A stretch of 64,000 bases of DNA from Nitrospira sp. CR1.1. GTDB lineage: Bacteria > Nitrospirota > Nitrospiria > Nitrospirales > Nitrospiraceae. The number at the start of each line of letters is the position of its first letter. The first letter of the stretch is position 1. Below the pieces are notes generated by a model. It was given only the letters and a program-made list of their open reading frames with translations, was not told where the DNA came from and did not search any database. The stretch covers positions 186,001 through 250,000 of the forward strand of contig WIAF01000001.1 of assembly GCA_014055465.1 (NCBI GenBank), read 5' to 3'. The translations under genes were made by a program, and so were the position numbers. Below, one piece after another: positions 41,575-46,806 of this stretch.

Positions 41575-42154
41575 AGAGACCTCCCCGGATCGCGGCGGAC
41601 TATGTCACAACCCAAGCGAATGCGCCCCAACCCTACCAGATTTATCAAGACTTCACACGACGAATTTCCCGCATCTGCAGGCCAGACATTTACTGACACA
41701 ATCCGTGGGATCATTGCGTTCGGCGCCTCTATATCTAGCAGGATGCGGAAAAAGTCCACCAGCGGCGTTCTCGCATCGTTCAGCGGCTCAACGTACGACA
41801 AGAGTACGATTCGCCGCTTCACTCGCTGCGGCCTTGCTGGATGGCCTTTCTGCGCATCCTGCCGACTATACTGATACCAACACGCCACGTGAGCTGATCG
41901 CGGCGTAGCGTGCAAAAAATGAGGTTTTCCGCAGCCTGCTAGAGACTGTGCATTGCCTGTGGTTTGGCCTGCTGGCTGCTGATCCCGCCCTGAACAAATG
42001 TTGTTACGGCGCCGCTCATGGGATTGGCCGCGCCGTCTCAGCGGAATAGGCGCAGGCGAACATATCGAACAGAAGAGCGCTCACCGCTGCCACCTCTCTC
42101 ACGACGTCACCGTCTCCTCAGACACAACCGGCCAACGACGTCTTTCTCTCATCG
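41575..42154. other. Intergenic region holding MITE copy A
   Basis: Contains the 208-bp repeat at 41735-41942. Outside it I see no gene on either strand. Confidence 0.5.
41735..41942 (+). repeat. MITE-like repeat, copy A
   Basis: A 208-bp element bounded by imperfect terminal inverted repeats ctagcaggatgcggaaaa (41735-41752) and ttttccgcagcctgctag (41925-41942), matching at 17 of 18 positions. An internal gcgcatcctgc repeats the end sequence. Nearly identical to copy B at 46394 over most of its length, diverged from copy C at 44368. No transposase inside, so non-autonomous or REP-derived. Confidence 0.88.
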
Positions 42155-42547
42155 TCAGGACGCAGAACGGCGCTGTGATTCGCTCAGAGCCGCCGTGATT
42201 GCCGCCTTGGCGCGTAGACGCTCGCTTTCTGCCACCGTTCGCTCCAAGGCCTTCGATGACCTCGGCTTACGCGGCATATCGGCAGCGCGCTGCGATTCTT
42301 CCATGGCCGCCGTAATCGCCGCCTTTTTATGGCGGAGCTTCGCCGCCTCAACGGTCCGAACCAACGCGGCAGAAATCTTCGGCGAGCTCTCCCCTGCGCC
42401 TTTCCGTTGAGAGAACTCCATCGCTGCCGTCACATCGTCTTTCTTCTGTCGCTGTTTCGCCGCCAAGGCCTTGCGGGCCAACGGGCTAGCGGTCGCGTTG
42501 CGTTTCGCGTTCCCGGCGGACGTCGATGCATCTTGTCTTGTTTTCAT
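42155..42547 (-). CDS. Basic protein made of three internal repeats
   Basis: 130 residues from ATG 42547, nine bases after GGAGG. After a Ser/Thr/Ala-rich head come three units of about 35 residues, each reading roughly L-x-R-T-V-x-A-(6)-(K)-A-A-I-T-A-A-M/L-E-x-S-Q-R: ...DDVTAAMEFSQR, RTVEAAKLRHKKAAITAAMEESQR and RTVAESERLRAKAAITAALSESQR. Highly charged, all-helical, no signal peptide or membrane segment. A nucleic-acid- or nucleoid-associated role is conceivable. I recognise no family. Confidence 0.72.
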   Translation of the reverse strand: MKTRQDASTSAGNAKRNATASPLARKALAAKQRQKKDDVTAAMEFSQRKGAGESSPKISAALVRTVEAAKLRHKKAAITAAMEESQRAADMPRKPRSSKALERTVAESERLRAKAAITAALSESQRRSAS

Positions 42548-42791
42548 CACGTCGTTCCTCCTCTTCATGAGTCCTGTTCGTCCTGCGGTCCGTCACCAAC
42601 AGGATCAACATGCGCCAACATGGACTACGGGATGGTGTCCCATTATACCAGGGCATTCGGCGAAGGATGAACGCTGACAGATCAGACGTCCGGGGACATG
42701 GGGAGTTGTAGGCCAATCAACGGCATTGTGTTCCCGACCTCGCCGCGGCATACTGGGTCTAGCCGTGATTCTTTTCTCAGGACACCACGCG

Positions 42792-43229
42792 ATGCGAACA
42801 CGAGGCTTTGTTTTTGGATTGATCCTGACGCTCCTCCTGTCGACAGCGGCAAGCCCGGCTCCGGCTGACCCGGGCGGCACAGGCCCCGCAACGAAGGGTG
42901 ATGCCGCGCGAGGACAAGGACTCTTTAACGGCAAAGGCATTTGTCATTATTGTCACGGCATCGATGGAGTGATCGACAAGAAACCGTCTCTCGCACCCGA
43001 CACCCGGGCGGTGATTGCGAAGCACGCCGCTTCGGCGCCGGATCTCCGCAATCGTGCGTCGCAGAAGCTGAAAGACAACAAGGCTCGGTTTCGCGCGATT
43101 CGAGAAGGCCATCCGGGGAGCGGCATGTTCCCCGATTCGACCCTGAACGATCAGGACATCTCCGACATCGTTGCCTATCTTGCAGCCCTCAGGCAGAGCG
43201 CCACGGCTCCCGGCAAGAGCCCGTACTGA
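42792..43229 (+). CDS. Periplasmic mono-heme cytochrome c
   Basis: 145 residues. Signal peptide (FGLILTLLLSTAASPAPA), heme motif CHYCH (Cys51, Cys54, His55) and a probable axial Met in HPGSGMFPDSTLNDQDISDIVAYL, a C-terminal helix typical of class I cytochromes. Different from the pair at 16806/62478. The start ATG has only a weak AGGA upstream. Electron carrier in the periplasm; stands alone and converges with the CapA-like gene. Confidence 0.87.
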   Translation: MRTRGFVFGLILTLLLSTAASPAPADPGGTGPATKGDAARGQGLFNGKGICHYCHGIDGVIDKKPSLAPDTRAVIAKHAASAPDLRNRASQKLKDNKARFRAIREGHPGSGMFPDSTLNDQDISDIVAYLAALRQSATAPGKSPY

Positions 43230-43307
43230 CCATTCTCTCCGTCGCGTCACCCGCACCGCTCGCGCTGGTCAGCTCCAGCTTCAACAGGCTTGCGGTATCG
43301 CTCTTCA

Positions 43308-44297
43308 TCATTCAATCGTCACCGTGCCGATCCCTTCTCGAAACAAAACAGCTGTCCCGAATGTCGCGCACTTGGCCTGCATCGTCCGCGCAAGAACGGT
43401 CTGCTCCCGTTCATTGGCCCGCCTGACTCGACAATGCTCGATCCGGACCGGGAGGAGAAGGATCTGCCGGATACGGGTCCGCTCGACCTCCAGGAGAAAC
43501 AGGAAGGACAGATCGTTGCGCTCAGCGCTGTCCACCATGTAGTCATCAACGAAGTCGCCGGTCGAATAGAGAATGGCTTTGCCTTGATACCATTCGATTC
43601 CTTGCGGGGTGTGATTGGAATGTCCCCAGTAGAGGTCCGCGCCCATCTCGATCAATTCATGCGCCAGCGCCCGCATCGCGCGTGACGGCGCCCCCCAATT
43701 GGGTCCCACATGCGCGCTGACCAGCACCAGGTCCGCCTGCCTTCGCGCCAAGGAAAGCGCCCGCGCCATGCGAGCCCGGTAGTTGGGCAGTACGCCGCGA
43801 TCATTGTAGGCGACATAATTGATGCCGGGCTTATTGTGCGTCGCTTCCCACTCCGGCTCATTGTCCGTCAACGCCACAAGGGCCATGGACCGTTCCCCAA
43901 GACTGAACACCGCCGGAGCAAGCGCCTCTTCCAAACTCGCCCCGGCCCCTGCGCGGGTGAGACCGGCTTCATCGAGCCGCCTCAGGCAATCCAGAAACGC
44001 CTCCTGACCATAATCAAGCACATGGTTGTTGGCCAGCATGACCCCGTCAATCCCGGCTGCTCGCAAGACGTCCACCGCCCGAGGCCTGGCGCGAAAATGA
44101 AAGGCTTTTGTCGCCGGGTGCCACGGCGCACCCCGATCACTGATCACACATTCCAAATTGATCAGGCGGCAGTCAGCACGCCGCATTACAGGGAGCATGT
44201 CGCCCCACAGGGCCTCGGGACGCACCGTGCGGTTCTCAATCACTAAGTCATTCACCAGGCGTCCGAGCATGACATCGCCGGTTAGTGCAACTTGCAT
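43308..44297 (-). CDS. CapA/PgsA-type metallophosphatase-like protein
   Basis: 329 residues from ATG 44297, four bases after GAGGA. Motifs: ALTGDVMLGR at the N terminus, NLECVIS, ANNHVLDYG, VSAHVGPNW and GHSNHTPQGIEWYQGKAILYSTGDF, the metal-binding His/Asp/Asn set of the CapA (poly-gamma-glutamate synthesis) family. No signal peptide and no capB/capC genes nearby, so an enzymatic role other than capsule synthesis is likely. Upstream, the space to the PEBP gene is filled by repeat copy C. Confidence 0.87.
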   Translation of the reverse strand: MQVALTGDVMLGRLVNDLVIENRTVRPEALWGDMLPVMRRADCRLINLECVISDRGAPWHPATKAFHFRARPRAVDVLRAAGIDGVMLANNHVLDYGQEAFLDCLRRLDEAGLTRAGAGASLEEALAPAVFSLGERSMALVALTDNEPEWEATHNKPGINYVAYNDRGVLPNYRARMARALSLARRQADLVLVSAHVGPNWGAPSRAMRALAHELIEMGADLYWGHSNHTPQGIEWYQGKAILYSTGDFVDDYMVDSAERNDLSFLFLLEVERTRIRQILLLPVRIEHCRVRRANEREQTVLARTMQAKCATFGTAVLFREGIGTVTIE

Positions 44298-44367
44298 CGT
44301 TCCTCTAGCTCGATCGCTCGCATCCCCACGGTCGCGGAGGCCGTCGCCGGATCGGCCCTTGGCCTCA

Positions 44368-44557
44368 CATGCTGCGGAAAAACTCAATTGTTGCGCAATA
44401 CGCTACACTCACTCCTGTACCGTACTGGTTTAGCAGTCATCCGCAGGATGCGCAGAAAGGCCGCAGCAAGCGAAGAGGCGAATCGTATTTCACACCGTAC
44501 GGTGAGCCTCTGAGTACCACCAGAACGCCGGCCGCGGACTTTTTCCGCATCCTGCTA
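44368..44557 (-). repeat. MITE-like repeat, copy C (diverged, inverted)
   Basis: The reverse complement aligns with copies A and B: it begins tagcaggatgcggaaaaag, has the gattcgcc...gctgcggcc and gcgcatcctgc blocks in order and ends in tttttccgcagca. The middle is clearly diverged. Its outer end at 44555-44557 supplies the TAG stop of the PEBP gene, so insertion fixed or changed the end of that gene. Confidence 0.8.
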
Positions 44558-45019
44558 CCGCGCGAACCGCCCCATCAATTGAGCTTCAGCCAGCACATGC
44601 CCCTTCATCGCCTCCACAACCTGAGCCTTTGTCGCTTTTGGTTTGAGCGGCAATTCACGATCCAGCGCATACAGCGTGAAATAATAGCGGTGAGGTGTTC
44701 CGGGTGGCGGACAGGGTCCGCCATAGCCAACCCGATGGAAGTCGTTCAGGCCCTGATGCGCATCATTCGGCAACCTCTCCTGCAAGGGCAGTCCCTCGGC
44801 CAGCCCGCGCACATCGATAGGAATGTTGAAGAGGACCCAATGCACCCAGATGCCGCCTGGCGCGTCGGGATCGTCCGCGATGAGGACAAAGCTGCGGGTA
44901 CCCGCTGGCGGATGGTCCCAGCGCAACGGCGGCGAACGATCCTCGCCCTCGCAGGTGTGCTGTTTCGGAATCGACTCCCCTTCCCTGAACGTTCCCGCGG
45001 TCAGTTCAAACGGCGGCAT
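44555..45019 (-). CDS. YbhB/YbcL (PEBP) family protein
   Basis: 154 residues, ATG seven bases after GGAGG. Typical PEBP motifs: CEGEDRSPPLRWDHPPAGTRSFVLIADDPDAPGG, IWVHWVLFNIP and GPCPPPGTPHRYYFTLYALD. These cytoplasmic or periplasmic proteins bind phospholipid-like or small anionic ligands; the bacterial role is unclear. No signal peptide. The stop codon lies in the terminal repeat of the MITE-like element C, so the natural C terminus may have been slightly altered. Confidence 0.93.
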   Translation of the reverse strand: MPPFELTAGTFREGESIPKQHTCEGEDRSPPLRWDHPPAGTRSFVLIADDPDAPGGIWVHWVLFNIPIDVRGLAEGLPLQERLPNDAHQGLNDFHRVGYGGPCPPPGTPHRYYFTLYALDRELPLKPKATKAQVVEAMKGHVLAEAQLMGRFAR

Positions 45020-45072
45020 GGTCGCTCCTCCATTTCACCGTTCTTCTCAGCAGGAGATGGCGACGTAGCGGA

Positions 45073-46008
45073 TTATGCCCAGGTCCGTTCCGCATCGAAT
45101 GCCTGCTCTCCCCACAAGGCACTCAACGGCAGATCCAGGAGCGCATGGGCCCCGGAACTCAGGCCCGGTAATGCCCGAGCAGCCGCCACCATGAGGCGCG
45201 CCGTCATTATCGCCTCGTCAAACCGCGCTTCGAACAACAGCCGCTGATGCCCCTTGCTCCCCGGCCCGCTCCGTCGCTCCAGCACGACGCCACGGCCTTC
45301 CTGCTCCAACGCAGCAACACGGTCGACCGGAAAGACCAACGTCTCGTCGTGGAGAAAGAGCGGATCGGCCCGAATGGCCGCGGCCACGTGCGCCATGTCC
45401 ACGCCCGGCTCCACTTGGACATAGACATACCGCTGCCTCGTTCCGTCAGCGGCGACCTGCTCCGTACAGAGCGCTTCCGTCACACCCGTCACCTGACGCG
45501 CCATCGCCGTATGATGCAGGCTGGCCGCGACACGATGCCTGGTCTCCAGTTCCCCTTCCGGCACCAACAAACCAAATAGGGAACGGACGAGAGACAACGC
45601 CCCCGGATCCCACCCGGCGCCGACAATGGCCGGTACATCAAATCGAACGGCGAGCCGATGAATCGCCTCGCGGTGAGCCTGAACCGCCTCTCCGTGCAGG
45701 ATGGACGATTCGACGATAGGGACTCCATGCTGCAGGCAGTCATGCGCGGCCTCGAACACCTGCGCGGTCGGCACGCAAAGGAGCGCGCCATCCATTCCTG
45801 GCGCCTGCGCAGTGTGAGAAATTACCGGCGCCTTGCTGTAGGCCCCAGGCAACGGCTGCGCGACATGGTCGATCTGTCGCACGATCGCCGCTAAGCTCAG
45901 ATCCTTCGCGTCGAGCACGGCGTCCGCACAGGCCCTGCCCACCCGCCCGAATCCCACCACACCAAGCAGCAGACCTTCCTCACCATGCCGCTTTGTCCGT
46001 GCGACCAC
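45073..46008 (-). CDS. NAD(P)-dependent dehydrogenase, meso-diaminopimelate dehydrogenase-like
   Basis: 311 residues from GTG 46008, six bases after GGAGG; the upstream TTG frame has no site. Rossmann motif LLGVVGFGRVGRA at the N terminus, CVPTAQV near residue 100, a GAGWDPGALSLVRSLF block and a DAPDH-like C-terminal region (RYVYVQVEPGVDMAHVAAAIRADPLF). The layout fits diaminopimelate dehydrogenase, which makes meso-DAP in one step, but it could be a related amino-acid dehydrogenase. It precedes the PEBP gene by 54 bp. Confidence 0.78.
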   Translation of the reverse strand: MVARTKRHGEEGLLLGVVGFGRVGRACADAVLDAKDLSLAAIVRQIDHVAQPLPGAYSKAPVISHTAQAPGMDGALLCVPTAQVFEAAHDCLQHGVPIVESSILHGEAVQAHREAIHRLAVRFDVPAIVGAGWDPGALSLVRSLFGLLVPEGELETRHRVAASLHHTAMARQVTGVTEALCTEQVAADGTRQRYVYVQVEPGVDMAHVAAAIRADPLFLHDETLVFPVDRVAALEQEGRGVVLERRSGPGSKGHQRLLFEARFDEAIMTARLMVAAARALPGLSSGAHALLDLPLSALWGEQAFDAERTWA

Positions 46009-46806
46009 GCGCGATTCCTCCGACTCGACTTCACGCAAGCGATCCCACTGATGGAGCAATCGCAATGCCTGCCCGTCATGCCCGGGTTGCGAGGAACCCG
46101 TCCGGCAGTTTCCCGAATAAACTCACTGATATCGGAAGGAGAGTGACGATTAGGATGCGCGACAGCTCGAGGCGGGCCCACTGCCTGGCGATTCTTGCCT
46201 GTGCCCTTTCGCAGCATCACTACCAACAGGCTTGTAGCGGATTTCCGCAGCCCGCACGGAGTAGGACAGGACCAGCCATTGCTTACACGACACAAGGGCA
46301 GCTGGCAGCGGGACGACTCAGCGAATGACGCCGCTCCTGTTGCCCCTATTCGCACCAGCAGATCCGCGTCAGTGGGGCATCCGCCTCAAGGTCTCTAGCA
46401 GGATGCGGAAAAAGTCCACCAGCGGCGTTCTCGCATCGTTCAGCGGCTCAACGTACGACAAGAGTACGATTCGCCGCTTCACTCGCTGCGGCCTTGCTGG
46501 ATGGCCTTTTTGCGCATCCTGCGTACTATCCTGATACCAACACACCTGAGCTGATCGCGGCGTAGCGTGCAAAAATGAGTTTTCCCGCAGCCTGCTAGTG
46601 CCCCACGGGTGGAACTGTCCCATCGATGAGCGGGCTTGCACCACGATAGCGCAGGCTAGCGCTGTCCGAAGGTATGCGACTTGCTGTTGACAGGAGTGAC
46701 TGGAGCCGAGGTGAGCGTGGTATCCGGGGCCTCTCACCAGAGCGCTGAGGAGGGATCCGACGCGATGAGCGAAGCGTGGCTGCTATTCCCGCAGGCGAGG
46801 TAGAGG
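46009..46806. other. Long intergenic region with MITE copy B
   Basis: About 800 bp without a recognisable gene. It holds the 205-bp repeat at 46394-46598; outside that, frames are short and have no family signal. The promoter of the MlaC-like gene should lie in its right part. Confidence 0.5.
46394..46598 (+). repeat. MITE-like repeat, copy B
   Basis: 205 bp, bounded by ctagcaggatgcggaaaa (46394 on) and ttttcccgcagcctgctag (ending 46598). Differs from copy A by a handful of substitutions and small indels only, so the two are recent relatives in the same orientation, 4.7 kb apart. Direct recombination between A and B would remove the genes between them. Confidence 0.88.

Follow-up and report, generated by a model that had tools for sequence, protein, structure and literature searches.

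According to the accessible part of its description (PMC6382973), MITEAba12 of Acinetobacter, a miniature inverted-repeat transposable element (MITE) with 90 copies in all, is attributed to the insertion sequence (IS) ISAba12. For IS5, YTAR is given as the duplication motif in the accessible part of a second source (PMC10359306). From Streptococcus pneumoniae the short dispersed repeats SPRITE, BOX, and RUP are known, of which SPRITE is described as terminator-like, and MITE-borne terminators are called conceivable (PMC10969869, accessible sections). The elements treated here are located in a stretch of 64,000 nucleotides of Nitrospira sp. CR1.1 (contig WIAF01000001.1, positions 186,001 to 250,000), hereafter the window, in which a first-pass annotation had marked three MITE-like copies, A, B, and C, within 5 kb. 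These copies very probably belong to one family of MITEs, i.e., non-autonomous DNA transposons, for which an IS5-type transposase would be supplied in trans.

Like MITEAba12, a family-wide element in bacteria, the Nitrospira elements are short MITEs that can be linked to a full-length IS through their terminal repeats and target duplications, but MITEAba12 has 9-bp duplications and a length of 111-114 bp (PMC6382973, in part), whereas the elements here have 4-bp YTAR duplications and measure ~200 bp, a 123-bp core being nested within them. The candidate partner IS resembles IS5 in its YTAR duplications and is recognised by the NCBIfam IS5 model (motif from PMC10359306, in part). Unlike IS5, the MITE copies, with their CAGG... 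ends, encode no protein. SPRITE, BOX, and RUP are likened to them as short dispersed repeats by description only, and the terms "stop codon" and "Nitrospira" were not found in the accessible sections of the review of pneumococcal repeats (PMC10969869).

The family is of the IS5/YTAR kind with an ordinary mechanism; worth noting are its order-wide spread, its covarying conserved core, and its tolerance at stop codons. In a literature search that was thin on subscription journals, neither a Nitrospira MITE nor a MITE landing on stop codons appeared in titles or abstract openings, which does not imply absence from print, and papers mentioning both Nitrospira and MITEs describe no Nitrospira MITE in their accessible parts. 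As far as this partial literature can tell, the family is new.

Target duplications, empty sites, and spread

In the following, G000 denotes this genome (4.44 Mb), other G numbers its relatives, and L numbers individual loci. Comparison of many copies places the limits of the element at a CAGG start and a CCTG end, i.e., at 41739-41938 (200 bp) for the whole of copy A and at 46399-46594 (196 bp) for copy B. The element is a composite of a 123-bp near-palindromic core with its own ends and an extension of ~77 bp that carries a new right end on the outside. The repeat of the end sequence inside the element, noticed in the first-pass annotation, is present and looks like the former right end of the 123-bp core. 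Solo 123-bp cores with CTAG on both sides occur at L133 and L265. The solo core L133/L208 (G015 contig 27, CAKKRE010000027.1) ends ~85 bp upstream of a tmRNA gene.

Target duplications were assessed for 181 copies, retained from 281 nhmmer rows after removal of those starting past model position 3, situated at most 40 nt from the end of a locus, or having a repeated flank. The four bases before CAGG are CTAG in 95 copies, TTAG in 20, CTAA in 17, GTAG and ATAG in 7 each, TTAA in 5, and others in 30. For 80 of the 135 elements with an outer right end, the left and right 4-mers are exactly identical, versus a mean of 40.8 and a maximum of 55 in 2000 shuffles of the 4-mers. The two sides match in 16 of the 19 full-length copies of this genome; in G023 they do so in 9 of 10 copies, and TTAG, CTAG, GTAG, ATAG, and CTAA are each paired with themselves there. 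CTAG is therefore a 4-bp target duplication located outside the inverted repeat, which properly begins CAGG[A/C]TGCGGAAAAA. The terminal inverted repeats reported for the window are indeed present (a pair of 19 nt, 95% complementary with the target duplication counted in), except that the ctag assigned to them is the duplicated target.

Empty sites of copy C were found in G016, G018, and G044, with a junction reading CTA[CT]CG. In case of the own copy L005 (contig 2, 195871-196079), the site is empty in G009 and G002, where the alignments overlap by exactly 4 bp, and a single CTAG is present in seven relatives (L327-L333). This CTAG is the stop codon common to two convergent genes, encoding an RNase HII-family and a C4 zinc-ribbon protein. 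An older family element occupies the same CTAG in the same orientation in G014 and G041, and flank identity is higher in the relatives with an empty site. This suggests repeated insertion at the L005 site, with the restriction that the element itself is counted in the identities of G014 and G041 and that no tree stands behind the comparison. The reverse situation, an element in a relative and an empty allele in the window, is given by the stop codon TAA (45073-45075) of a dehydrogenase-like gene, at which G016 carries an insertion.

The repeats are palindromic, dispersed, short, and often located at gene ends, as is the case for REP (repetitive extragenic palindromic) and REPIN sequences moved by a RAYT (Y1) transposase, and the genome has one Y1_Tnp gene (C6:115426-115674). 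Given the duplicated targets, the exact empty sites, and a DDE element with the same ends, this explanation is almost certainly wrong; moreover, nhmmer finds no core match in 3.2 kb around the Y1_Tnp gene. To our knowledge, REPs leave no such target duplication. Membership in REP/REPIN was rejected on account of the duplications and the missing link between the core and the genome's one Y1_Tnp gene.

With copy A as query, 45 matches were obtained in the genome (best non-self E value 1.3e-97), corresponding to 40 elements after merging of split matches; 19 full-length copies, A and B included, are 93-100% identical to A. A search with the end sequence gave 28 and 32 matches on the two strands, versus 0 and 1 for the reversed control, and added 11 lone ends, raising the count to ~51 copies or ends. 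Both results greatly exceed what chance would give. The family is thus not confined to the three copies in the window, and its ends are conserved among copies dispersed throughout the genome. For the lone ends L035, L054, and L059, no second end of this kind was found within their 3 kb, and none of their open reading frames (ORFs) was recognised as a transposase by reading, a family search on those ORFs not being part of this inspection.

Among the matches listed, a 127-base core occurs in at least 101 of the 295 genomes sampled from the phylum. Of these, 77 belong to the own taxonomic family (79 sampled), 15 to the rest of the order (19 sampled), 6 to other parts of the class, and 3 to other parts of the phylum; 174 unlisted genomes of the phylum rank after more distant kin and were taken to lack the family. 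G156 is the one genome beyond the order with a strong core match (E value 1.5e-12), the other eight ranging from 2e-6 to 9e-4. A 41-base core pattern has 82 matches in GTDB genomes, and the 80 listed are all named Nitrospira, Nitrospiraceae, or Nitrospirae. In G118, G125, G182, and G239 (genus g12), 187-223 unscored first-look core candidates were counted, compared to 110 in this genome, and these genomes may hold many more copies.

A candidate partner insertion sequence

Of 31 transposase loci (L091-L121), nine have both ends of this kind. L100, L107, and L111 of sister species are complete IS of 1316-1317 bp, which begin with CAGGCTGCGGAAAAACTC, end with TTTTTCCGCAGCCTG, and have the duplications TTAG, CTAG, and CTAG, respectively. 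A second group, comprising L102, L103, L117, L119, and L120, has TGTTGACAAAC ends, and L108 is of a third kind. Exact duplications were observed in seven of the nine IS copies, six of them YTAR and one ATAG, and are inexact in L119 and L108. Further IS ends of this kind are located at L163, L165, L183, and L189. Most of what is generally expected of MITEs is found for this family: the copies are dispersed, short (~200 bp) and too short for a transposase gene, have inverted repeats, target duplications, and empty sites, and share their ends with an autonomous element, which is present in sister species (L100, L107, L111, L165).

The L111 transposase matches the NCBIfam IS5 model NF033581 with 282.5 bits (cut-off 140), and in the candidate partner transposase Pfam DUF772 and DDE_Tnp_1 score above cut-off. 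Other assignments were discarded: the score for the IS1182 family (NF033551, 202.9 bits) is below the cut-off of 270, and the IS701 domain DDE_5 (PF13546) occurs in one of 41 genomes and in none of the genus. The right end of the own copy L003 is identical to the 5' end of L111 at 18 of 18 bases. We propose that a DDE transposase of an IS5-type element, acting in trans, would recognise the inverted repeats and insert the MITE at 4-bp sites of the form NTAR, most often CTAG, duplicating the site in the process. Both the act and the route of transposition, as well as the role of this particular IS as partner, are deduced from comparison of the sequences.

Several observations speak against this explanation. 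Exactly matching 4-mers are lacking in 55 of the 135 elements, due to age or mis-called right ends, and of the 46 copies that lack an outer right end, just 2 have a matching 4-mer at the internal end, so that the reading as a former end draws on few cases. The left end of the own copies, A among them, has 2 mismatches to the L111 end in 18 bases, and MITE and IS share ~18 bp of their ends alone. Since nothing beyond these ends is common, the partnership is deduced from ends and duplication, and a simple internal deletion of the IS as origin of the MITE was rejected. The G023 copy of the IS contains an in-frame TGA, and a search with the L111 protein revealed no intact matching transposase in this genome.

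A full-length transposase element with the same ends, proposed as a check, was found in the sister species and not here. The own matches to the L111 protein consist of two fragments of a second-group IS ~2.2 kb apart and one distant match of 30%. The fragmented IS with TGTTGACAAAC ends is situated at G000:C1:940-4222 (L181, L173, L161), where ~2.2 kb of other DNA splits the transposase. Loss of the partner between contigs is unlikely, since none of the 60 end-like matches lies less than 10 kb from a contig end. With copies ~95% alike and no intact matching transposase found, the family looks stranded in this genome. Within the genus, the L111 protein was matched at all in 17 of 29 genomes, and strong matches (E < 1e-100) were obtained in G001, G044, G023, G020, and G041. 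G004 has 2 MITE matches, compared to 19-23 in the other 23 congeners, and contains 14 copies, all with the same score, of an IS5-like transposase that is only distantly similar to the L111 protein (28%).

The hairpin core and gene ends

Comparing the same copies with those of 16 relatives, the core is 0.889 and the extension 0.699 identical; versus G023 the values are 0.887 and 0.553, respectively (shuffled extension 0.466). For the fold, 42 of 138 candidate cores with a mutual similarity score below 0.93 were aligned, and six pairs of helix 4 were placed by hand into the computed fold. These 42 diverse cores form one hairpin with 94.6% of cells paired, versus 33-46% in slid controls. Changes on both sides were observed for 13 of 33 pairs, in 65 cells versus 16.6 in shuffled alignments, and none of 500 shuffles reached 65. 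Seven of the 13 pairs are located in helix 1, i.e., in the terminal repeats, and five in the internal helix 4.

This covariation may stem from function, from co-evolution with the transposase, or from palindrome repair, and kinship of the copies inflates the counts. The chances are about even that the covarying arms are a by-product of transposase binding to both ends together with template-switch palindrome repair, the hairpin having no host function. The seven pairs in helix 1 agree with such a by-product, as do the MITE end variants GCGGAAAAA and TGTTGACAAA, which resemble the ends of two IS groups; the five pairs in helix 4 are situated away from the ends, however, and the conserved core includes unpaired stretches that palindrome repair leaves unexplained.

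A tentative and rather unlikely addition to the MITE explanation is that the core is a selected useful element, e.g., a bidirectional terminator or a stabiliser of transcript ends with A-tract, GC-rich stem, and T-tract, which is spread to gene ends by the MITE. The stronger conservation of core than extension and the pairing and covariation, including helix 4 outside the terminal repeats, are in line with selection, but transposase binding or palindrome correction can also conserve a hairpin, and the covariation counts are raised by the shared ancestry mentioned above. Furthermore, a terminator scan allowing loops of up to 8 bases finds no terminator in A, B, or C, and the core has no Rfam match.

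The positions of the copies bear on the same question. Gene calls were made by our own coding-model script without annotation, and the related genomes are non-independent samples. A total of 107 copies have an outer right end at up to 225 bp and a score above 90, and 76 of these have at least 700 bp on both sides. At threshold 25, 25 of the 76 have their duplication on a stop codon, 50 are intergenic, and 1 interrupts a gene, whereas a cruder set of ORFs of at least 120 aa places 22 of the 76 "inside" an ORF. Of the 53 insertions at CTAG, 0 are in genes, compared to 56 of 177 control CTAGs taken from those flanks. Gaps between divergent genes, i.e., the promoter side, are depleted of copies (5 of 51 versus 48 of 186 control sites, p 0.014), which, like the frequent landing on stop codons, would suit a selected core, but gaps between convergent genes are not enriched (15 of 51 versus 43 of 186, p 0.36). 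In tandem gaps, 21 elements are oriented one way and 10 the other.

In a first control with ORFs of at least 200 aa, stop-codon sites made up 20 of 71 non-interrupting insertions versus 25 of 344 control sites (p 4e-6). With the coding model at threshold 25, stop codons account for 16 of 53 CTAG insertions and for 14 of the 121 control CTAGs outside coding sequence (p 0.004), the corresponding numbers being 17 of 52 versus 15 of 120 at threshold 15 and 15 of 53 versus 11 of 132 at threshold 40. It is quite unlikely that the element is actively steered to stop codons or to the 3' ends of genes over and above its preference for CTAG. The excess over the control CTAGs would fit such steering, as would the L005 stop codon, at which the more distant genomes G014 and G041 have an older copy in the same orientation, while seven other relatives are empty; compared with sites in the same intergenic stretch, though, 23 stop-codon landings were seen and 19.4 expected (p 0.043, 67 of the 76 sites testable), and the test is sensitive to the script-made gene calls. 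Because the effect shrank with the coding model and with the within-stretch expectation, a targeting mechanism is not favoured. Landing on stop codons is real and results mostly from the CTAG target preference together with purging from genes.

Under the MITE explanation, insertions at gene ends could hit stop codons because YTAR contains TAG or TAA, and the duplication would leave the gene a stop, while insertions inside genes would be rare, presumably being lost by selection. Going further, the 123-bp core might serve as a mobile module for 3' ends. It would then be a hairpin working in both directions, as a terminator or a stabiliser of transcript ends, that has been retained throughout the evolution of an order of nitrite oxidisers; its ends would change along with the IS5-type transposases that move it, and it would arrive at gene ends via CTAG/YTAR stop codons restored by duplication. 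We regard this reading as unlikely.

Interiors also differ among mosaic relatives. L147 (G000:C4:118466-118741), L054, and L059 share ends and extension with the young element but not its interior; that of L147 has a similarity of 82% to L059 over 125 bp and of 75% to L054 over 120 bp. From this comparison, interiors seem exchangeable.

Copies in the window and meaning for Nitrospira

All three repeats are present where they had been annotated, and C is inverted and diverged, with 71% identity to copy A. The description of A and B as nearly identical holds in relative terms only, as their identity is 97% for the first 153 nt but 94.5% for the full element, and of the 190 pairs formed by 20 copies of this genome, 114 are closer. 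No local event is therefore needed, and the recent movement or gene conversion thought to tie A to B was dropped, as was local duplication, since each has closer copies elsewhere in the genome. Finding three copies within 5 kb is only slightly unusual, with P 0.07 in a simulation of 51 elements. Deletion of the segment between A and B is possible in principle; the gene order between them is the same in G018 and G044. Features are compiled in the table.

Features of copies A, B, and C and of adjacent genes (positions within the window)
Feature	Position	Strand	Basis
Copy A, left target duplication, CTAG	41735..41738	.	4-bp rule from 135 elements
Copy A, hairpin core, 123 bp, own two ends (CAGG...CCTG)	41739..41861	+	
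Copy A, extension with outer right inverted repeat (TTTTCCGCAGCCTG)	41862..41938	+	
Copy A, right target duplication, CTAG	41939..41942	.	
Copy C, left flank CTCA, diverged target duplication	44364..44367	.	
Copy C, 187 bp, diverged, inverted; core 44444-44554	44368..44554	-	
Copy C, right target duplication, CTAC	44555..44558	.	
Phosphatidylethanolamine-binding-protein family gene, ends in copy C duplication	44555..45019	-	Pfam PF01161, E 3e-46
Dehydrogenase-like gene	45073..46065	-	weak Pfam: DAPDH_C below cut-off; GFO_IDH_MocA 24.4 bits, cut-off 24
Copy B, left target duplication, CTAG	46395..46398	.	
Copy B, hairpin core, 123 bp	46399..46521	+	
Copy B, extension with outer right inverted repeat	46522..46594	+	
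Copy B, right target duplication, CTAG	46595..46598	.	

The CTA within the CTAC duplication of copy C is the stop codon of the phosphatidylethanolamine-binding-protein family gene. Between A and C, a gene for a repeat-rich basic protein (42155-42568, minus strand) is located, which has no Pfam match and the same neighbours on both sides in several congeners.

Nitrospira are major nitrite oxidisers, some of them ammonia oxidisers, with little genetics. The repeats described here give them a mobile element that is defined, occurs throughout their family, and comes with a probable transposase, an exact target rule, and empty sites; it is useful for strain comparison and for the reading of Nitrospira repeats. 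A function of the hairpin is possible. Should the conserved hairpin act on transcript ends, the landing of a transposon on stop codons would be a way for mobile DNA to provide genes with 3' ends, and if the core is indeed a 3'-end module, the family would represent a selfish element paying its way by supplying transcript ends.

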